Shown: positions 19,663 through 61,204 of the stretch, in pieces
Position numbering within the stretch: the first letter of the stretch is position 1
How the letters are laid out: each line of letters starts with the position of its first letter
Origin: Acidobacteriota bacterium
Lineage (GTDB): Bacteria > Acidobacteriota > Terriglobia > Terriglobales > Acidobacteriaceae
Direction: 5' to 3'
DNA: 64,000 nt
Assembly: GCA_018268915.1 (NCBI GenBank)
Contig: JAFDVQ010000005.1
Span: forward strand, 1-64,000
Translations under genes and position numbers: made by a program
Notes under the pieces: generated by a model
The model's database searches: none
What the model saw: only the letters and a program-made list of their open reading frames with translations
Told to the model about the DNA's origin: nothing

Positions 19663-22600
19663 ATGGTGTGTTCAGCCGGTAGTGCCCGGAACTTCCTCCC
19701 CTCCCTCGCTCGGATCGCCGCATTGTCGTGCTTTCTACTACTTAGCCCGGTCACTCGCACGCTCTCCGCGCAGGCCAACTCGAATGCTCAATCAACTCAG
19801 CCGAAGAAGACACCGCAGGACTCAACCACTCCGCCGGCCGAGCAGATACTTTCATCTTATGAAGGTCAGGCTGTCACGTCCGTCGAGATCGCCGGCCGAC
19901 CCGATCTGAAAACTGCTGACTTCGAGTCCAAGATTGCGCAGAAGACAAACCAGCCCTTCTCACGCGATAGAGTCGACGCCACTGTCTCCGCTCTCAAGTC
20001 AACTGGCCAGTTCCAAAATGTCCGCGTTGAGGTTGAGCCGCTCTCAAACGGACTCCGCGTTCTCTTCATCCTCGATCCTGCTGTCTACTACGGGATCTTC
20101 CAGTTCCCCGGCGCCGAACGCTACCCATACTCTCGCCTGATCCAGGTCTCCAACTACACCTCACAAGCCCCATACGATGCCGCCACCGTAGAGCAGGACC
20201 GTCAGCGCCTTATCCGCTTCTTCCGCCAGGAGGGCTACTTCAAGGCCGACATCACCACCAAACTTCAAGCCGACTCAAAGCACGGCATTGTGAACGTCAT
20301 ATTTCAATCGGACCTCGGGAAGAAGGCCAAGTTTGGTGACGTCAACATAGCCGGTGTTTCTCCCGCTGAGGAAAAAGAACTCCACAATCAAGTCACCGGC
20401 ACTCTCGCTCGATTTCGCGGAGCCGCCATCCGCCATGGCAAGACATACCGGCGCGGCAACCTCACCAAAGCCACCACCCGTTTGGAGTCGCACCTTCAGA
20501 AGGAAGGCTACCTCGCCGCCCAGGTTAAGCTGTCAGGCGCGCAATTTCACGCCGACACCAACCGTGCCGACATCCAGTTCAAAGCCGCCCCCGGCTCCAA
20601 GACAAAAGTACAGATCGAAGGCGCTCACCTGTGGCCGTGGACAAAGAAAACACTTCTCCCCGTTTATCAGGGTGTCGGCGTCGACCCGGAAACCGTGGCA
20701 GAAGGAGAACAGTCTCTTAGCTCCTATTACCAGAAGAAGGGCTACTTCGATATCAAGGTCTCTTCCGATATCGCAGGCAATGATCAGCTCCGCACCGTTA
20801 CTTATCGCATCGTCAAGGGCAAGAAGCACAGCGTTACGGATGTTCACGTCGCCGGCGAGCAGCAACTGAAAGAAGACGACTTGGCACCGCATCTCGCCGT
20901 CCAGAAGAAACACTTCCTCTCGCACGGACAGTTTAGTGATCAGCTCGTGCGTACCAGCATCAAAAACCTGAAGGGTGTCTACCTATCACAGGGATTCAGC
21001 AACGTTCAGGTCACGTCGAATGTCATTCATCACGGCGGCGACATCGAGGTCACCTTTCACGTCACAGAAGGTCCTCGTGATGTAGTCAGCTCCCTCTCCA
21101 TCCAGGGCGCCAACACATTTCCGCAGGCGCAGTTCGCTCCGCAGGGTCTCAAGCTCGCAGAGGGTCAGCCTTATTCACAAGCCAACGTACAGTCTGACCG
21201 CGCCGGCATCATGGCCAACTACTTCAAGGCTGGCTACCTGACGGCCAGTTTTCGCGAGACAGCGACGCAAGTGGCCAAGGACGATCCGCATCACATCAAC
21301 GTCGTCTACCACATCTACGAGGGCCCTCGAGTCTTCACTGGCGAAGTCCTCACGCTCGGCCGCAACTACACCCGCCAGCGCCTCGTCGATCAGGACGTAA
21401 ATATTCTCAAGCCCGATCAGCCCCTCACAGAAACAAATCTCCTCACCGCCGGCAGCAGCCTCTACGATCACACCGGTGTCTTCGACTGGGCTGAAGTTGA
21501 TCCGAAGCGGCAGATTACCACTCAGACGAGCGAAGACGTCCTCGTAAAAGTCCATGAGGCCAAGCGCAACGACTTCACCTACGGCTTTGGCTTTGAACTC
21601 GTCAATCGCGGTGGCAGCATTCCCAGCGGAACCGCCGCCGTTCCCAGTCTTCCGCCAGTCGGATTACCGTCGAACTTCAAAACCAGTCAGAACACCTTCT
21701 ACGGTCCGCGCGGATCGTTTCAATACACGCGCAACAACTTCCGCGGCAAGGGAGAATCAGTCACCTTCACCGCATTCGCCGGCCGCCTTGACCAGCGCCT
21801 CGGCCTCTTCTACATCAATCCAAATTTCCGCTGGTCGCCCTGGAAATCCACCTTTTCTTTCACCGCCGAACGTAACGAGCAGAACCCCATCTTCTCTCTG
21901 CAACAGGAAGTCGGAAGCTGGCAGGTTCAGCGGTTCATCGACAGCGCCAAGAAGAATCTTTTCTTCGTTCGCTACAGCTTCAGCAAGACAGATCTGACCC
22001 GCATCGAAATCCCGGACCTCGTTCCCGTGGAAGATCGCAACGTCCGGCTCTCAGGCTTCGGCGCGAATCTCACGCGCGACTCACGCGACAACGTGCTCGA
22101 CGCCCACAAGGGCGTTCTCAACTCCGTCGAGCTCGACCTCAACTCCACCAAGCTCGGTTCCAGCGTCAACTTCGCAAAGCTCACTTCGCAGACCGCTATC
22201 TACCGTGAGAAGTTTCACAACATCGTCTGGGCAGGCAGCATCCGCCTCGGCTTGGCACAACCTTACGCCAGCAGCCGCGTTCCTCTCAGCGAACGCTTCT
22301 TTACCGGCGGTGGCGACTCTCTGCGCGGCTTTCCGCTCGACGGCGCTGGCCCGCAGCGCAACATCTTCGTCTGCAGCTCAGATGAAACCGCTCCCAACTG
22401 CCCGCAGATCAACGTGCCAAGCGGCGGCAACGAGCAGCTCATCATTAACGCTGAAGCCCGCATTCCGCTCCCCATTAAAAAAGGCCTCGGCATCGTACCT
22501 TTCTATGACGGCGGCAACGTATTTCCGAATATCGGATTCCACAATTTCACGTCTCTATATTCAAACAACGTAGGTATCGGCCTGCGCTATTCCACGCCGG

Positions 22601-52788: not shown

Positions 52789-54093
52789 TCAATTCGGCTT
52801 ACTCTCCGCGGGCTTCTGTCCAACCGGCTCTACCGATTTGCTTTCAGGTGCCGACGCTGCCGCCTTTTGCCTGCGCTCCGCGGCTCTCTGCAGCTCCTCG
52901 TCCCTCTTTACCTTCGCCGCCGCCGCCTCCGCGTCCGTCACATAACGGAACACCTGCAGCCTTCCCGGCTCCTGCTCCGTTGTAAACACCCGGTTATGCT
53001 TGTCGATCGCAACACCCACCAGCGTCTTGAATTGCCCTGGAAGCTCCCCATGTCCGGTTCCCACGAAGGTCAGCAACTGTCCTTCGCGATTGAACACCTG
53101 TAGCCGATCCTGCACCTGGTCTGCCACCCAGATGTGCCCGTCAGCATCCACCGCAATTCCCTTTGGCCGCGCAAAATATCCCGGCCCGTCTCCGTTCTTT
53201 CCGAACTCACGGATGAAGTTCCCATCCGCATCGAAGATCTCAACGCGGTTATTCATCGTGTCCGTTACGTAGACGGTACCCTCGGCGTCCACAGCCACTC
53301 CCTGCGGCGCGCCAAAGTCTCCCGGTGTAGTCAAGAAGTGATTCTTCCCGCCTGTCCCGATTCGCCTCAGTAGTTTGAGCGAGTCCGCGTCATAGACCAG
53401 CACCTGGTCCTGCTGGGTATCCACGACATACAGAAACCGGTTCGTCGTGTCAATCGCTAATCCAACCGGATCTTCCAATCCCTCCGTGATCTGCCCCTCC
53501 ACCTCGTGTTTCGCATTGAAGATCAGAACTTTGTGGATCTTCCCGTCCGAAACAAACAGCCGGTCGTCATCGTCGATCGCCACGCCGTTCACCCAGCCAA
53601 AGTGCGCTTCGTATCCATTGCGGATCATCTGCACATCCAGGGTCTCGGTGTTGATGATGAACACGCCGCCCACCCTCTGATCCGCGACATAGACCAGGCC
53701 CTTCGAGTCGATCGCGATTCCGTATGGCCCGATCATCTGGTACGGAAAATCCTTGGGATTGAATTTCTCTTCCTCGGTCTGGCCGCCCGCCAGGCGATCC
53801 ATCCAGCTTGCCTTGGCTTTCGACTTCGCTGTCTGCGTGTAGTCGATCTTCTGCCCGGCGAAGTAACTCACCCATTTCACCCGCGCTACATTTGGCGGGC
53901 TCGGCCACACCAGCTTCGTCGGATCGAAACCGAATTTCCGCGGACCAGCCTCCGGAGCTGGCGTCTCAGCTTTCTTCTTCTTTTTCTTATCCGCATAAGC
54001 GTTCGCCGTCATCAGCGTAGCGAACACGCTCAGCAGCACAACCAGCCCTAGTGCCTTCCGAAACCGAATCGATTTGTAGAGGAAGCTATGCAT
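52789..54093 (-). CDS. Periplasmic NHL-repeat beta-propeller protein
   Basis: 434 aa. A signal peptide (cleaved near NAYA, about 34) is followed by a Lys-rich patch (KKKKKK). About six NHL blades run from about 110 to 385, each with the form GIAIDSKGLVYVADQ, GVAIDDDDRLFVSD, GLAIDTTNRFLYVVD, GVAVDAEGTVYVTD, GIAVDADGHIWVAD or GVAIDKHNRVFTTE. The acidic-basic tail is low complexity. Such propellers are protein-binding scaffolds or lactonase-like enzymes. It follows the 16-haem cytochrome by 24 bp, so they probably act together. GGAG lies 9 nt before ATG 54093. Confidence 0.9.
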   Translation of the reverse strand: MHSFLYKSIRFRKALGLVVLLSVFATLMTANAYADKKKKKKAETPAPEAGPRKFGFDPTKLVWPSPPNVARVKWVSYFAGQKIDYTQTAKSKAKASWMDRLAGGQTEEEKFNPKDFPYQMIGPYGIAIDSKGLVYVADQRVGGVFIINTETLDVQMIRNGYEAHFGWVNGVAIDDDDRLFVSDGKIHKVLIFNAKHEVEGQITEGLEDPVGLAIDTTNRFLYVVDTQQDQVLVYDADSLKLLRRIGTGGKNHFLTTPGDFGAPQGVAVDAEGTVYVTDTMNNRVEIFDADGNFIREFGKNGDGPGYFARPKGIAVDADGHIWVADQVQDRLQVFNREGQLLTFVGTGHGELPGQFKTLVGVAIDKHNRVFTTEQEPGRLQVFRYVTDAEAAAAKVKRDEELQRAAERRQKAAASAPESKSVEPVGQKPAESKPN

Positions 54094-54117: not shown

Positions 54118-55602
54118 CTATTTCCCCGGCAGCACCGTTTCCTTCATATTCAGCCGGTTCTTGTGGCAGCTGTCGCAGAAAGCCATGTTGTTCGACTGGT
54201 CTTTAACCAGCAGATTCGCCTGACTTGAAGCGTGTGGTTGATGGCACGAGAGACAGCTCAAAGGCATCTTCAGTTTTGTCTGATCCGAAGGATCCATCAC
54301 GTCTGAAACCGGGTGATACTCCACCGGATGTCCCAGCCCGAATCGCAGAGGGAGAATCGCCACCTTGTTCTTCTGGTAGTAGTCCTCCGGCAACCGGACT
54401 TTTCCGTTGAAGATTGTCAGCAGATGATTCGCTTCATCCCTCTTCGCCTGTGAATCCGGCCCGTGGCACTCCAGGCACAACGAATTCCCCTTAGCACGCA
54501 GCAGATGATCGTTCTCGCCGCCGTGCGGCGTATGGCAAGTGGAACAACCCTGTGCGAACGCCGGTTGATGATGCGCAGGCTTCTTCCGCAACTCATCGAT
54601 ATCGCTATGGCACCCGAGGCAGATGCTCACCGAGTCTGTCTTCGGCAACCCTGGCTGCTTGCTCGCATGTGGACTGTGGCAGTCAGTGCAGTCTCCGGCT
54701 GCGCCCGGATGCGGCACCTTCGCCGACTCAATCTCTTTGCCTTTGTCCTCGTGGCACGTCACGCACAGCAGCTTTGCGTCTGTCTGCGTCAGAACTACCT
54801 TGCCGTCCTTCGCTGGCTGATGGCAGGTGTCGCATCCATTGCCCTGGAACGGTGCATGCAGGAACTTCACCATCAGCTTGGGCTGGTCTGACTGGTGCGG
54901 ATCGTGGCACTGCAGGCAGTTCGCAGTCCCGAACGGCTGATTATTGTGCTTCTTCTGCAGCTCCGCATCTTTCACGTCGTGGCAATCCACGCACAGCGCA
55001 GGTGCAGCCTTCGTCAGGTGAAAGCGGTTCTCCGCCGTCGGCTCCGCGCCCGTCTTATGCGTCGTATGACACGTGTCGCAGCCGGCATCCAGCGCCGCGT
55101 GTCTGCTTCCCTTCTCCGCAACATGCAGGCCCGTCTGGTGACAGCTCAGGCAGAGATTCTCTTTTGCGTCTCCCGAAGCAGGCTTCAGCAGTTGATTCTT
55201 GTTTTCGCTTCCATGCGCGTCATGGCACGTCATGCAATCCCGAACCGCCGGAGGATGCACCACGCGCTTGATGTTCTTTGCGCTCTTGTCGTCGTGGCAC
55301 GACAAACACAGCGCCGACGTCGTCGCCGTCATCAGCTTAACCCGCGTCACATCCTTGCTCACCCGCACTTCATGGCAGGTCAAACACCCGCCCTGCATCG
55401 CGGAGTGAACAAACTTGTGCTTCGTTCTATCCTCGTGGCACTCCAGGCATTTCTTTGCATCGACGTTCTTGTCCAGCGGCACAGGATGCACCGCCGCCCT
55501 TGCATGGGCTCCTGACAGCAACATCAACAACGCACAGAAGCCGGCTGCAAGCACTCTGCTGCCGACGGAAGGGAAAGGCCGAACAAGAGGAAGCAATTTC
55601 AT
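54118..55602 (-). CDS. Sixteen-haem periplasmic cytochrome c
   Basis: 494 aa with a signal peptide (cleaved near ARA, about 36). I count sixteen CxxCH haem motifs, from CLECHED near residue 51 to CDSCHKN near the end. They alternate as pairs such as CMTCHDAH and CTDCHSPH, the doubled pattern of DmsE/NapC-like multihaem chains. Interspersed His residues could be distal ligands. Such chains store or wire electrons through the periplasm. ATG 55602 is chosen because the signal peptide begins there; the open frame to 55671 starts with TTG. No barrel porin is adjacent. It heads an operon with the NHL propeller. Confidence 0.95.
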   Translation of the reverse strand: MKLLPLVRPFPSVGSRVLAAGFCALLMLLSGAHARAAVHPVPLDKNVDAKKCLECHEDRTKHKFVHSAMQGGCLTCHEVRVSKDVTRVKLMTATTSALCLSCHDDKSAKNIKRVVHPPAVRDCMTCHDAHGSENKNQLLKPASGDAKENLCLSCHQTGLHVAEKGSRHAALDAGCDTCHTTHKTGAEPTAENRFHLTKAAPALCVDCHDVKDAELQKKHNNQPFGTANCLQCHDPHQSDQPKLMVKFLHAPFQGNGCDTCHQPAKDGKVVLTQTDAKLLCVTCHEDKGKEIESAKVPHPGAAGDCTDCHSPHASKQPGLPKTDSVSICLGCHSDIDELRKKPAHHQPAFAQGCSTCHTPHGGENDHLLRAKGNSLCLECHGPDSQAKRDEANHLLTIFNGKVRLPEDYYQKNKVAILPLRFGLGHPVEYHPVSDVMDPSDQTKLKMPLSCLSCHQPHASSQANLLVKDQSNNMAFCDSCHKNRLNMKETVLPGK

Positions 55603-55623
55603 ACGAACTCTAAATCGATCTCT

Positions 55624-55638
55624 AGCAAGCGTCTCGCC
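55624..55638 (-). promoter_or_regulatory. Candidate sigma-54 (-24/-12) promoter of the cytochrome operon
   Basis: On the minus strand GGCGAGACGCTTGCT has GG and GC dinucleotides 12 nt apart, the RpoN spacing, with GGC and TTGC cores. It would start transcription near 55613, about 11 nt before the ATG. The leader would be very short, so this is tentative. Confidence 0.35.
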
Positions 55639-55744
55639 TTTCCTGCGAGCATGACGCAAGCCCTGCCGCAATCCCCCACTCAGCTAATCAGGCTCCAATG
55701 TGAGGTTTCGCAACTCGATTAGATATCCGTCCTCATCCTCAATC

Positions 55745-55760
55745 CGTGATTTGGATCACA
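55745..55760. promoter_or_regulatory. CRP/FNR-type palindrome, site 1
   Basis: CGTGATTTGGATCACA matches TGTGA-N6-TCACA at nine of ten positions and also contains GTGAT-N4-ATCAC. It lies about 150 bp before the cytochrome ATG. Confidence 0.65.
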
Positions 55761-55785
55761 TCATGACCCTCTACCGCGAAGCCAA

Positions 55786-55801
55786 CGTGAAATGCCTCAC
55801 A
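55786..55801. promoter_or_regulatory. CRP/FNR-type palindrome, site 2
   Basis: CGTGAAATGCCTCACA has the same half-sites as site 1 (CGTGA-N6-TCACA). The centres of the two are 41 bp apart, close to four helical turns. Confidence 0.65.
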
Positions 55802-55813
55802 ACTCGCCCTGAT

Positions 55814-55845
55814 TGCGCCAAATGGCAGTGCTCCATGCGCCATTT
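55814..55845. promoter_or_regulatory. Repeat pair (TGCGCCA twice) with inverted AAATGGC/GCCATTT
   Basis: TGCGCCA occurs at 55814-55820 and 55836-55842, 22 bp apart. AAATGGC (55820-55826) and GCCATTT (55839-55845) form an inverted repeat. It could be an activator site or a small RNA hairpin; function is inference. Confidence 0.45.
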
Positions 55846-55978
55846 AGCCCAAACTCCGCTGCATCGTTGCTCCTAACTCCTTTCGAGCGGTCTCTACCTC
55901 CGGCCTGGAGCCTCTGGAAAACAACGTGCTAATTATTCGCTGAGAACGACCGCGCAGCCCTCAACGAGGAGCCCTAAA

Positions 55979-57049
55979 GTGCACACCGTACGCGTCAACT
56001 GGCAGATCAAGGCGATCCTGCCCGTGGTGTGCGTGCTCATCGCCGGCCTGCTCCTCTTCGCCATCGCGACCCTCACCCTGCGCGATCCCGACCGGGACGC
56101 CCTTCTTCTGCTCGCCGGAGCTGGATCCGTCACCGTCTGCGGAGTCACCATCGCCGTTCTGGCCTACCTCATCCAGCGCCCCGTAGTCGAACTTCAAAAG
56201 AAGATGGCGCTCGTCAGCCAGGGCGATCTCAACACCACCGTCTCCTTCTGCAACAGCAATGACGAAATTGGAGACCTCGGTCGAAACTTCAATCACATGG
56301 TGCAGCAACTTAGAGAAAGCCGTCAGGAGATAGAAACCATGCATCGCACACAGATGTCGCGAGCCGAGCACCTGGCCACGCTCGGCGAACTAGCGACAGG
56401 CCTCGCCCACGAGATCCGCAATCCCCTTGCCGGAATCGCCGGCGTCATCGACATCATCGGTCGCGATCTCCCCGTCACCAGCCCTGCGCGCGCCATGGTC
56501 AAAGACGTTCGTCTCGAGATCGATCAGATCAACCGCATTCTTACCGACCTGCTACAGACTGCACGCCCCCATCCACCCCGCATGATGAAAAGCAACCTCA
56601 ACACCACCGTCGAGCACGCCGTGATGCTCGCTCGTCAACAGGTCATCTCTAAACCCATTCGTATCGAAGTCGTCACTGACTCCAATCTTCCTGAAGTGCA
56701 GCACGACAGCGACCAGATCCACCAGGTCGTCTTGAACCTCTTGTTGAACGCAGTTCAATCCATTGAGGGCAATGGCTATGTGACTGTCCGAGTCAGCTCC
56801 AGTGACGACTGCGCCATCTTTTCTGTAACCGACACCGGCCGAGGTATGTCTCCGCAGCAGATCACGCAGATCTTCCGCCCGTTCTACACTACAAAGCCCA
56901 CTGGAACCGGACTTGGCCTCTCTCTCGTGAGCCGCATCGTCGACGAACACGAAGGACGCATCACCGTGACCAGCGAACCCGAAAAAGGCAGCACCTTCGA
57001 AGTCCATCTGCCCTTCGCTGCAGTAGCCGAACCCGCTCAGGTCGCGTAG
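55979..57049 (+). CDS. Membrane sensor histidine kinase with HAMP domain
   Basis: 356 aa. Two transmembrane helices (about 11-33 and 43-65) enclose a very short periplasmic loop of about ten residues, so sensing probably happens in the membrane or through a partner. The HAMP domain (about 66-118) has DLNTTVSFCNSNDEIGDL. HisKA has LGELATGLAHEIRNPLAGIA with phospho-acceptor His144. The HATPase has LNLLLNAVQSI, DTGRGMS, FRPFYTTKP and GTGLGLSLV. It resembles NtrB/ZraS-type partners of sigma-54 activators. GTG 55979 has GAGGAG about 8 nt upstream. Likely cognate to the regulator at 59762. Confidence 0.93.
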   Translation: MHTVRVNWQIKAILPVVCVLIAGLLLFAIATLTLRDPDRDALLLLAGAGSVTVCGVTIAVLAYLIQRPVVELQKKMALVSQGDLNTTVSFCNSNDEIGDLGRNFNHMVQQLRESRQEIETMHRTQMSRAEHLATLGELATGLAHEIRNPLAGIAGVIDIIGRDLPVTSPARAMVKDVRLEIDQINRILTDLLQTARPHPPRMMKSNLNTTVEHAVMLARQQVISKPIRIEVVTDSNLPEVQHDSDQIHQVVLNLLLNAVQSIEGNGYVTVRVSSSDDCAIFSVTDTGRGMSPQQITQIFRPFYTTKPTGTGLGLSLVSRIVDEHEGRITVTSEPEKGSTFEVHLPFAAVAEPAQVA

Positions 57050-57197: not shown

Positions 57198-59540
57198 ATG
57201 AGACTCACTTGCCTCGTTCTCTTCCTCGTCTCGACTGCCGCCTTGCCAGCGCAAAATCTTAAGCTTCTTCGCCTTCTCGAGGCCGATTCTGCCGAACTCA
57301 CCGACGGCCGCACCACCTCCTCCGTCCACGTCGGTGCACGCTTCGCCAACTGGACCCTCATGGCCATCGCCGGCGAGCCCTCATCCCCAGACCACTTCGC
57401 CGTTCTCGAAGACTTCACCACGCAAACCGGCCACCTCGTTGTCATCGACACCCACGGCATCCGCTTCGATCTCCCCAAGACCGCCGAACCCACCTGGGCT
57501 GATCCAGCAAAGCTCTACAACGGCCATAAACTCGAAGAAGTCATCAACAACCCCTCCGATCTTCTCGGCGACGAAGTCCTCTCTCGCCCCGGCGATCCCG
57601 ATTACGACACCATCGCCCCACTGATCCCGCCGATCCAGAAGATCAACACCTACTCCTTCGTCGGCACTCCCAATACCGCCGACAAAGTCGGCTTCGCATA
57701 CGGCGGTCGCTCGCCCGACTTCGACCCTGCTCCCTACGATGACGCAATCCGGAAAATCCGCGAAGAGGGCCGCGTTCTCGACGGCATCGTCGGAGGCTGG
57801 CTGCCCATCCTTCGCTTCGTTTATCCCGAGACGCCCGACAAATGGACGGAGATGATCACCTTTGCCCCCTTCCGCACTGTTAACGGCAACAACCGCATTC
57901 AGCCGGTCTGGTACCGCATCGTTCATGTCGAAAACGGTTCCGTCGCATGGACGCGTTACGTCGACTCGTACCATCCCTTCCCGCCGCGCACTGACTACGA
58001 CCGACGCCTCTTCTATCGCGATCTCATCTCGCTCCGCGCCGGCTGGCAAAAACTTCTCGCTCCCGCCATGAAGATCGAAGTCCCCGACACGCGCCTCCAG
58101 AACATGGCGCAGCTAAGTCTCGTCCGCGAGATGATGACACGCATCAACGACTACCCCAAGTACGGCGTCGTCGATCGCGACTACGGCGGCAGCGAGCACG
58201 ACGGCTTCCCCGACACCTTCACCGTTGACACCACCGCCATGCTCGAGTGGGGCCTCATCGAAACAGCCGGCCGCTACATCGACAACTATCTCGGCAAATT
58301 CGTCCGCGACGACGGCTCTCTCCTCTATCGCGGCCCCGAGACAGGCCAGTACGGCCGCATGCTCTCCGTTCTCGCACAATACGTGAACTACGGCGGCGAT
58401 CCCGCGCTCCTCGTCCGCCACCGCACTCCAATCGACGGCATCACGCGACTGCTCCTCGGCATGCGCGACAAGGCAAAGCAGCTTCCCCGCGATAACCCCG
58501 CTTACGGCATGCTCGCCGGCTGGAGCGAAGCCGACGCCTCGCTCGACCCCGATCCGCCCCGCTACATGCAGCCGTATTTCTCCAACAGCGCCGAAGCCGC
58601 GCAGGGCTTTCGCGATCTCGGCCATGTTTGGTCGCAAATCGGCAAACAGCAGCACTCAACCGAAGTTGCGACCTGGGGCGATCGTCTCGTCCGCGAATCC
58701 ACCGAGCTTCAATCCGACCTGCAAACTTCCATCTCCCGCTCGCTTCTTCACGACGGCAGCGAAACCATCCTCCCCTCGATCGCCGGAGCCAAAGAGCCCT
58801 TCCACGTCGTTGTGCCCCGCGATCCCACCGATCCGCAGTTCCGCTCCTACCGCGCCTACATGGAGATGATGTACTCCGGCCTGATGACAAAAGACGATGT
58901 CAATCAGATCGACAACTATCGCCGCACGCATCACGACATCATCCTCGGCATACCCACTGCCTACGGCTACAAAACCGGTGCTGTCGCCGGCTTCCTCGCC
59001 TATGGTCACGCCTACGGACTCATCCAGCACGACATGAATCGCGAAGCGCTGCTCCTGCTCTACTCGATCATGGCCCACCAGTACACCCGCGGCACATGGA
59101 CCGCGCCTGAGACGCGCCCGGTCTTCGACAACTCAAACGCCGCGCCCTACTGCACTCCCGCCCAGCTCATCGTCCCGCTCATGGCCAAGTGGCTCCTAGT
59201 CTTCGAAGACCCGAACTCCGACACTCTCTGGTTCGGCAAGTCGATGCCCGAGCAATGGCTCGAAGACGGCCAGAAGGTCTCGATCTCTGACGCTCCCACC
59301 CGCTTCGGCCGCGTCTCCTTCTCCACCGCATCCCACCTCACCGACAACCGGATCGAAGCCACACTCAACCTCCCACCCAACTTCAAGGCCGCCGCCAAAC
59401 TCCGCCTCCGCGTCCACGGGCAGCGCAAGCTCGTCTCCGTGACCCTCAACGGAAAGCCCTGGAGAGACTTCACCCCCGAAGGCATCATCACCGTCCCACC
59501 AGACCCAACGCCCAAAATCACGCTCACTGCTCATTACTAG
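57198..59540 (+). CDS. Large secreted protein, probable alpha/alpha six-hairpin (glycosidase-like) fold
   Basis: 780 aa with a signal peptide (about 1-19, cleaved near LPAQ). The N-terminal part (about 20-300) is beta-rich. The middle (about 310-640) has helical repeats typical of (alpha/alpha)6 barrels: VREMMTRINDYPKYGVVDRD, VDTTAMLEWGLIETAGRYID, then GMLAGWSEADASLD. A late beta domain ends TLNLPPNFKAAAKLRLRVHG. This resembles GH-type or polysaccharide-handling six-hairpin proteins, but I cannot name a family or catalytic pair. It lies between the histidine kinase and its likely regulator, so its product may relate to their signal. Confidence 0.75.
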   Translation: MRLTCLVLFLVSTAALPAQNLKLLRLLEADSAELTDGRTTSSVHVGARFANWTLMAIAGEPSSPDHFAVLEDFTTQTGHLVVIDTHGIRFDLPKTAEPTWADPAKLYNGHKLEEVINNPSDLLGDEVLSRPGDPDYDTIAPLIPPIQKINTYSFVGTPNTADKVGFAYGGRSPDFDPAPYDDAIRKIREEGRVLDGIVGGWLPILRFVYPETPDKWTEMITFAPFRTVNGNNRIQPVWYRIVHVENGSVAWTRYVDSYHPFPPRTDYDRRLFYRDLISLRAGWQKLLAPAMKIEVPDTRLQNMAQLSLVREMMTRINDYPKYGVVDRDYGGSEHDGFPDTFTVDTTAMLEWGLIETAGRYIDNYLGKFVRDDGSLLYRGPETGQYGRMLSVLAQYVNYGGDPALLVRHRTPIDGITRLLLGMRDKAKQLPRDNPAYGMLAGWSEADASLDPDPPRYMQPYFSNSAEAAQGFRDLGHVWSQIGKQQHSTEVATWGDRLVRESTELQSDLQTSISRSLLHDGSETILPSIAGAKEPFHVVVPRDPTDPQFRSYRAYMEMMYSGLMTKDDVNQIDNYRRTHHDIILGIPTAYGYKTGAVAGFLAYGHAYGLIQHDMNREALLLLYSIMAHQYTRGTWTAPETRPVFDNSNAAPYCTPAQLIVPLMAKWLLVFEDPNSDTLWFGKSMPEQWLEDGQKVSISDAPTRFGRVSFSTASHLTDNRIEATLNLPPNFKAAAKLRLRVHGQRKLVSVTLNGKPWRDFTPEGIITVPPDPTPKITLTAHY

Positions 59541-59761
59541 AAACCAGCAATGCAAGTCTCCCCAGCCTCCCGGTTCCCAAGTCCACTGCTTTCTCCCGTG
59601 ACCCACATCACATTCTTCCTGGCCCTTCCCGCCTCTAATGAACTCAAGCGTTGTATCGGGGATCACTCACCCAGGGTCCCGCAGACAAAAGATCCCCTCC
59701 ACCACGCTCATGCATAGAGAACTAAAACTGCGAAAACGGTCAGTCGTACATGAGAGAACCG

Positions 59762-61204
59762 ATGCCAGCAGAAAGAATCCTCATCGTCGACGACGAACGC
59801 CTCGTGCGCTGGTCGCTGCGTCAAAAATGTGAAGAGTGGGGTTTCCAAGTCCTCGAAGCCGATGCCGGCGAGCCTGCTCTACGTCTCGCTGAGCGCGAAT
59901 TACCCGACCTTGTCCTTCTCGATGTCCGTCTCCCCGATCTCTCCGGGATTGAAGTCCTCGACCAGCTCAAGAAGACTGCCGACACGGCCCCCGCCGTCAT
60001 CATGATCACAGCCGATCCGCAGCTCGACGACGTCAAAGCTGCCATCAGGCTCGGCGCGGTCGACTTCGTTGGTAAGCCCATCGACTTCGAGCTGCTCCAC
60101 GAGGTCATCCTCAGCACCCTCGAAGAACTTGCCGTCCGTCGCGGCAATCCGCAGTCCGCAAACGCCCGCCCTCGCCCCGGTGTCGGCTTCGAAAGCATCG
60201 TCAGCGTCTCACCAAAAATGACCGAGCTGATGAACTTCGTTCGCAAGGTCGCCTTGTGCGAAGCCTCAACGATCCTCATCCAGGGCGAAAGCGGCACCGG
60301 CAAAGACCTCATCGCCAAAGCGCTCCACTACGAAAGCGCCCGCCGCGATAAGCCCTTCGTCGCCATCAACTGCTCCGCGATTCCCGAAACCCTGATGGAA
60401 GCCGAGCTCTTCGGTCACGAAAAAGGCGCATTTACTGACGCCAAGCAGATGAAGAAAGGTATCTTCGAAGCAGCCGACGGCGGCACCCTCTTTCTCGACG
60501 AAATCGGTGAGCTGTCTCCCGTCCTTCAGGCCAAGCTCCTCCGCGTCCTTGAAGATCAGGTCATCCGCCGGGTCGGCGGTCTGCGCGATATCCAGGTCGA
60601 TGTCCGTGTCATCGCCGCCTCAAATCGTGACCTCGAAAAAGCTGTCCGGGAGAATCAGTTCCGCCAGGATCTCTTCTACCGTCTCGCCATCATCGCCATC
60701 TTCATTCCGCCTCTGCGTGATCGCAAAGAAGACATCCTGCCTCTCGTCGACTTCTTCGTCGATCGCTACAACCGCCGCTTCAAAAAATCCATCCGCGGCC
60801 TCACCGGTGAAACGCGCAGCTTGATTCTCGCCCACAACTGGCCCGGCAACGTCCGCGAACTCAAAAACACAATCGAGCGCGGCATGATCCTCGAAGAAGA
60901 GTCGTACCTCCGCTCGATCTATCTTCCCTTCTCCGTCGGCGAGTCTAACGGCCGCACCGCCTTCGAGCAGACATCTCCTCCAGACTCGGGACGACGCCTG
61001 CCCAACGGCCGCTCGCTTCCGCGCCTCTACATCCCTGAAGGCGGAACATCTCTCGAAGAAGTCGAGCACTCCATGGTCGAACTCGCCATGACCCAGGCCA
61101 ACGGCAACCAATCCAACGCCGCCCGCCTGCTCGACATCAGCCGCGACGCCCTCCGCTACAAGCTGAAGAAGTTCAGCCTGGTCCCCTCCGACCTCGAGGA
61201 CTAG
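59762..61204 (+). CDS. NtrC-family sigma-54-dependent response regulator
   Basis: 480 aa (484 if ATG 59750 is used; GAGAG sits just before 59762). Receiver domain about 1-120 with RILIVDDERLVRWSLR, acceptor Asp54 in LVLLDVRLPD and Lys in FVGKPID. AAA+ domain about 140-375: Walker A GESGTGKDLIAKAL, sigma-54 loop GAFTDA (usually GAFTGA), Walker B GGTLFLDEIGEL and Arg-finger region FRQDLFYRL. The C-terminal Fis-type helix-turn-helix has NQSNAARLLDISRDALRYKL. It remodels sigma-54 holoenzyme bound at -24/-12 promoters. Partner kinase is probably 55979-57049. It may act on the cytochrome operon (inference). Confidence 0.94.
   Translation: MPAERILIVDDERLVRWSLRQKCEEWGFQVLEADAGEPALRLAERELPDLVLLDVRLPDLSGIEVLDQLKKTADTAPAVIMITADPQLDDVKAAIRLGAVDFVGKPIDFELLHEVILSTLEELAVRRGNPQSANARPRPGVGFESIVSVSPKMTELMNFVRKVALCEASTILIQGESGTGKDLIAKALHYESARRDKPFVAINCSAIPETLMEAELFGHEKGAFTDAKQMKKGIFEAADGGTLFLDEIGELSPVLQAKLLRVLEDQVIRRVGGLRDIQVDVRVIAASNRDLEKAVRENQFRQDLFYRLAIIAIFIPPLRDRKEDILPLVDFFVDRYNRRFKKSIRGLTGETRSLILAHNWPGNVRELKNTIERGMILEEESYLRSIYLPFSVGESNGRTAFEQTSPPDSGRRLPNGRSLPRLYIPEGGTSLEEVEHSMVELAMTQANGNQSNAARLLDISRDALRYKLKKFSLVPSDLED

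Follow-up and report, generated by a model that had tools for sequence, protein, structure and literature searches.

Between the genes for a 16-haem c-type cytochrome and a membrane histidine kinase, an Acidobacteriaceae genome carries two CGTGA-N6-TCACA palindromes, which raises the question of whether these are genuine operators and, if so, of which promoters and for which protein. The analysis covered a whole stretch of 64,000 nucleotides (C15:1-64000), referred to here as the window, together with the rest of the genome and related loci. The initial annotation of this DNA described the palindromes as a matched CRP/FNR-type pair through which one factor could control both divergent arms. 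Both palindromes proved exact, with centres 41 bp apart, and they do lie between the two genes named [Table 1]. The CRP/FNR-type site itself withstood the analysis, by virtue of the enrichment of the motif, its recurrence in related loci, its -10 distance in the genus clade and the presence of regulators with fitting helices; the conserved pair and the control of both arms did not. It is sites 1 and 3, rather than the 41-bp pair, that form the useful units. In the reading that we favor, with a probability of roughly two in three, a CRP/FNR-family activator would switch on the cytochrome-NHL operon via site 1 and the response-regulator gene via site 3, both from class II positions and within a redox regulon.

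Table 1. Location of the palindromes, predicted promoter elements and neighboring genes in the window.
Feature	Position	Strand	Sequence	Remarks
NHL-repeat protein gene	52789-54093	-		Pfam NHL; downstream of the cytochrome gene; adjoins the cytochrome in relatives too
16-haem c-type cytochrome gene	54118-55602	-		Paired_CXXCH_1; 16 CXXCH counted
Predicted -10 of the cytochrome-NHL promoter	55718-55723	-	TCTAAT	22 nt from site 1; predicted start near 55711
Site 1	55745-55760	no strand	CGTGATTTGGATCACA	Exact CRP/FNR-type palindrome; leftward cytochrome promoter predicted to be activated from it in class II fashion
Site 2	55786-55801	no strand	CGTGAAATGCCTCACA	Exact palindrome; predicted tandem booster
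Membrane histidine kinase gene	55979-57049	+		HAMP, HisKA, HATPase_c
Site 3	59597-59612	no strand	CGTGACCCACATCACA	Exact match; predicted class II site of the response-regulator promoter
Predicted -10 of the response-regulator promoter	59634-59639	+	TCTAAT	22 nt from site 3; predicted start near 59646
NtrC-type (sigma-54) response regulator gene	59750-61204	+		Response_reg, Sigma54_activat, HTH_8

Exact copies of the palindrome in the window and the genome

The window had been said to hold no third strong site, which is wrong: site 3 matches in 10 of 10 half-site bases and is located upstream of the NtrC-type response-regulator gene. This site is intergenic, its centre lies 145 bp ahead of the gene start, and it has CCGTGA-N5-ATCACAT in common with site 1. 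A fourth exact CGTGA-N6-TCACA match (22204-22219) and a fifth one restricted to the GTGA-N6-TCAC core (43573) both fall within long open frames and may be chance occurrences. With two mismatches allowed, scanning the window returned 58 matches for 58.19 expected, that is, no enrichment, and the weight thus rests on the near-perfect sites only.

Counted over the 5.9 Mb of the genome, GTGA-N6-TCAC has 153 copies compared to 50 for the pattern read backwards, a threefold excess, and the more extended GTGAT-N4-ATCAC occurs 20 times compared to none for the control.

Recurrence of the palindrome upstream of the cytochrome

Cytochrome loci were gathered by protein similarity (to the cytochrome or the kinase) and not by motif, and 450 bp of sequence ahead of the cytochrome were scanned in 37 non-redundant loci, the window included. 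The set consisted of the 30 loci given for 38 cytochrome matches plus nine earlier loci, L070 and L071 having been dropped as near-identical to L111 and L114. An exact GTGA-N6-TCAC was present in 16 of the 37 loci. As a control, all 256 tetramer palindromes of equal spacing were scanned in the same 37 loci, yielding a runner-up found in 7 loci and a mean of 0.39, and GTGA/TCAC at other spacings from 2 to 12 occurred in 0-3 loci. In a smaller set of 21 loci, from which L067 and L069 were omitted (same contigs as L047 and L049), the site was found within 400 bp upstream in 11 loci; 500 dinucleotide shuffles gave 0.13 loci on average and 3 at most. The remaining 21 of the 37 loci were devoid of an exact site, including the same-genus locus L112, which shares its genome with L049; some of them harbor a site with one mismatch (e.g. 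L048, L114 and L118). Pairwise alignment with the Occallatibacter savannae locus (L047) revealed site 1 to be identical there at 16 of 16 bases. GTGA-N6-TCAC is very likely a real CRP/FNR-type operator.

Predicted promoter geometry of sites 1 and 3

At both site 1 and site 3, a TCTAAT hexamer begins 29.5 bp from the centre of the palindrome; if TCTAAT is the -10 element, both sites are therefore centred at -41.5, in the class II position. In Escherichia coli, class II CRP/FNR sites are centred at -41.5, according to PMC5957442, and the E. coli class II promoters described there resemble those of the window in their GTGA-N6-TCAC sequence and, on the same proviso, in the -41.5 centre, but differ from them in that the window's starts are only predicted and belong to another phylum, the Acidobacteriota.

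The distance recurs in relatives. On the cytochrome side, TCTAAT is found at 22-23 nt in L047, L050, L068 and L111 (the L070 locus); in L115 its place is taken by TGTAAT at 23 nt, and in L048, which has a one-mismatch site, by TGTAAT at 22 nt. Across the 37 loci, 6 of 20 exact sites were followed 21-24 nt toward the cytochrome by a -10-like hexamer, differing from TATAAT at one position at most, and all six lay at 22 or 23 nt; in the direction away from the cytochrome the count was 0 of 20. For two adjacent positions, chance would produce such a hexamer with a probability of about 0.3%. The cytochromes of the six loci combining site and hexamer are 71.6-100% identical to that of the window. 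At the response-regulator promoter, compared with the exception of loci carrying the gene on the other strand, five of the six same-genus loci have a site in the corresponding position (four exact, one with one mismatch; none in L049), and all five have a hexamer with no more than one mismatch to TATAAT at 22-23 nt. The class II spacing, with the palindrome centre at about -41.5, was accordingly found at sites 1 and 3 of the window and in the genus clade. Ten of the 16 site-bearing cytochrome loci lack a hexamer at this distance, for which reason the site may act from another position in the wider family. Nor does the class II layout serve as a genome-wide signature, a proposal that we rejected: the combined pattern of site and -10 gave only 9 matches in the genome versus 1 in the control, so most genomic sites use other positions.

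Under the favored reading, a CRP/FNR dimer bound at site 1 would replace the -35 box and touch RNA polymerase, turning on the cytochrome-NHL operon, and a dimer bound at site 3 would likewise turn on the response-regulator gene. For these two sites we infer from the sequence which protein binds, where transcription starts and in which direction the effect goes. The direction could in principle be the reverse, with a CRP/FNR protein bound to the same operator as a repressor and its dimer blocking polymerase at -41.5, a position that does overlap the -35 region; yet the fixed -10 distance in two promoters of the clade fits activation better, whereas a repressor would tolerate other positions, and we regard repression as unlikely.

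Candidate CRP/FNR regulators

The earlier observation that the window lacks a CRP/FNR-like gene holds, as all 12 cNMP_binding matches of the genome fall outside C15:1-64000. The search of the host genome that had been suggested for a regulator with a matching recognition helix retrieved, among these 12, six full-length CRP/FNR proteins encoded at C13:63139, C2:86114, C8:26123, C8:5545, C17:257089 and C4:110480, all with an R-E-x-x-x-R recognition helix, which is the CRP pattern reading GTGA. The helix reads RETV-x-R in L003, L004, L006 and L010, and RELISR in L001 and L005; HTH_Crp_2 has nine matches in this genome. Genes with a CRP-type helix were found with the same HTH_Crp_2 search in 34 of 34 genomes, with and without the site, and their presence alone therefore singles out no regulator.

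L003 (C2:86114) stands out by its conservation. An N-terminal C-x2-C-x8-C motif, also present in L006 and L010, was found in 89 of 90 homologues of at least 230 aa, among the 120 listed of 1552, and R201, E202, T203 and R206 are invariant across 21 aligned rows. C112, present by eye in the 18 rows of the L003 group, is shifted relative to E. coli C122 in a manual alignment and is absent from L004, L006 and L010. FNR chains of solved structures match L003 with E values of about 1e-12. Compared with FNR of E. coli and Aliivibrio fischeri, as described in PMC6659574, L003, L006 and L010 are alike in having a putative N-terminal cysteine cluster, but L003 differs in its C-x2-C-x8-C spacing (cysteines at positions 20, 23 and 29 in E. 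coli FNR) and in its CRP-type recognition helix. Against the curated NCBIfam Fnr model, L003 scored 63.2 bits for a cut-off of 228, and the best score against the curated CRP model was 84.2 bits (L001) for a cut-off of 266; no class III adenylate cyclase (PF00211) was found in the genome. The best solved sequence relatives of L003 and L004 are the Protein Data Bank entries 4cyd, 4byy and 3d0s, the last also of L001, all of which we take to be actinobacterial CRP/FNR regulators. Their helix likewise reads RETV in the alignments shown, but these alignments begin at residues 27-28 of L003, past its N-terminal cysteine motif. Judging from these sequences, the binder is most likely one of the six full-length CRP/FNR proteins, with the highly conserved L003 as first choice, and leans toward an FNR-like, redox-responding protein.

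Exact sites lie within 500 bp upstream of 5 of the 12 cNMP-domain genes, for a total of 0.16 expected; among these, only L009, L010 and L011 have the site within about 100 bp upstream. The exact site near the L003 gene is 333 bp upstream, inside the preceding gene. Palindromes are read by many dimeric regulators, and a protein of another family could be the one that reads GTGA-N6-TCAC; the sites ahead of cNMP-domain regulator genes, the class II distance in the genus clade and the fitting helices nonetheless speak against this alternative, to which we give little credence.

Three cNMP-domain proteins of the same genome, L007, L009 and L011, are short (137-179 aa as read) and, being below full CRP-type length, probably lack a DNA-binding domain. 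The exact GTGA-N6-TCAC of L009 and L011 is situated about 100 bp upstream of each gene.

Site 2, the pair and the kinase arm

The scan of orthologous regions that had been proposed for the 41-bp pair did not support it as a conserved unit: besides the window, only O. savannae has such a pair, at 42 bp (2 of 37 loci). Two exact sites also occur together in two more of the 37 loci, where they are separated by 55 and 181 bp. Site 2 is identical to its O. savannae counterpart at 10 of 16 bases in a pairwise alignment and has no -10 element in either direction. Arrangements in which a site at -41.5 has another one 40-50 bp above it were found in the window and in O. savannae only, and in none of the 35 other loci.

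Site 2 could be a lineage-specific tandem booster, lying at -82.5 from the predicted cytochrome start. According to PMC4595672, CRP acts jointly from two tandem sites, at -41.5 and -84.5, at the Vibrio cholerae tfoX promoter, and by analogy a second dimer bound at site 2 would be added in tandem to the one at site 1. The two promoters are alike in that a palindrome at -41.5 is accompanied by another about 41-43 bp farther upstream; they are unlike in that the upper site of the window is found only there and in O. savannae, and the likeness is one of geometry only.

Control of both arms by the palindromes, as first proposed, received no support, -10-like hexamers facing the cytochrome at 6 of 20 sites and the other side at none. 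As second target in the window, the response regulator, via site 3, is more probable than the kinase, which likely has a promoter of its own. That the two palindromes together constitute a conserved two-dimer operator governing both divergent arms would agree with the exactness of the pair, its placement on the same face of the DNA by spacing, the 42-bp pair of O. savannae and the low chance, about 0.005, of finding another exact site no more than 100 bp away to either side; with the pair present in only 2 of 37 loci and no -10 toward the kinase at any of the 20 sites, we nevertheless consider it very improbable. The notion that both palindromes are functionless chance matches draws on the lack of window enrichment with two mismatches and on the poor conservation of site 2, but is scarcely credible in view of the enrichment in the genome and in the family and the fixed -10 distance.

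Ahead of the kinase gene, the block at 55911-55935 recurs unchanged in O. savannae and is possibly the kinase's own promoter; nothing ties this block to the palindromes. It holds a weak GG-N10-GC element, conserved only in O. savannae. A sigma-54 promoter before the kinase was considered and rejected, its best GG-N10-GC candidate (8/12, at 55915) being equalled or beaten in 314 of 2000 random windows.

Gene order and a possible redox regulon

The NHL-repeat gene likely forms one operon with the cytochrome gene. Open frames of five family loci (L052, L054, L059, L061 and L066) place two genes between the cytochrome side and the kinase, which Pfam, run on L061 and L066, identified as ResB (PF05140) and Cytochrom_C_asm (PF01578); the stretch of L061 has no close cytochrome relative. 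These two genes are missing from 55602-55979 of the window. Given that ResB and assembly genes precede the kinase in other family loci, the older gene order was likely NHL-cytochrome leftward and ResB-assembly protein-kinase-regulator rightward. ResB has no match in the window's own genome, which holds three Cytochrom_C_asm genes, none of them at this locus.

An exact site precedes each of the three Cytochrom_C_asm genes by no more than about 450 bp, for an expectation of about 0.013 per 500 bp, and the site of the gene on C14 has a 14-base core identical to that of site 1, with TAGATT 22 nt further. Of the 153 sites, 50 were listed individually. The neighborhood of other sites was surveyed in 24 loci (three of them the window's own), and 20 proteins from 14 of the 24 loci were assigned by Pfam. 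Genes near the examined sites encode HypD, two multihaem cytochromes and a cbb3-type cytochrome c. Also nearby are a universal-stress protein beside a radical-SAM protein, and outer-membrane efflux proteins, as are genes with no redox role (melibiase, carboxyl transferase and beta-eliminating lyase) and two further proteins with no Pfam match. The redox share of these genes is suggestive, and we infer from the sequence that the sites belong to a redox regulon.

A broader picture is possible but doubtful, namely a global low-oxygen/redox regulon extending across the Acidobacteriaceae, in which an FNR-like C-x2-C-x8-C sensor with a CRP-type helix drives the 16-haem cytochrome, cytochrome-c maturation and hydrogenase-maturation genes and the sigma-54 response regulator. 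If true, a redox activator would govern the level of a second tier of control, based on sigma-54. To our knowledge, the control of low-oxygen respiration in soil acidobacteria has been little studied. A literature search, with most subscription journals outside its reach, revealed, among the papers listed, none describing a CRP/FNR regulon in Acidobacteria, and the terms 'fnr' and 'crp' are absent from the accessible part of a paper on Acidobacterium capsulatum under nanoxia (PMC11636273). The likely mechanism, an activator promoter, is of a type already known, here in a little-studied phylum, the Acidobacteriota. The analysis yields a concrete motif, two promoters with predicted starts, six candidate regulators and a candidate regulon.

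Several further features of the locus were noted. A 780-aa protein with no Pfam or NCBIfam match is encoded at 57198-59540, between kinase and response regulator, and the kinase-regulator gap measures 2704 bases in the window compared to 355-370 in L048, L049 and L051. Of 80 same-genus genomes searched, just 6 contained a protein closely related to the kinase. For the cytochrome, a single solved sequence match was retrieved, chain 6r2q_A, which bears the label cystathionine beta-synthase; this label looks wrong, since we take entry 6r2q to be a cytochrome complex. Lastly, two other elements recur upstream of the cytochrome. One, TGGGCTAAATGGCGCA on the minus strand at 55836-55851, is of a TGGGCYAAAT type found with at most two mismatches in 11 of the 37 upstream regions. 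The other, of the TGTGGGAGAA-GCCCA type, appears as TGGG-N6-CCCA in 7 of the 37 loci (e.g. L120, L121 and L124), mostly about 130-210 bp ahead of the cytochrome.
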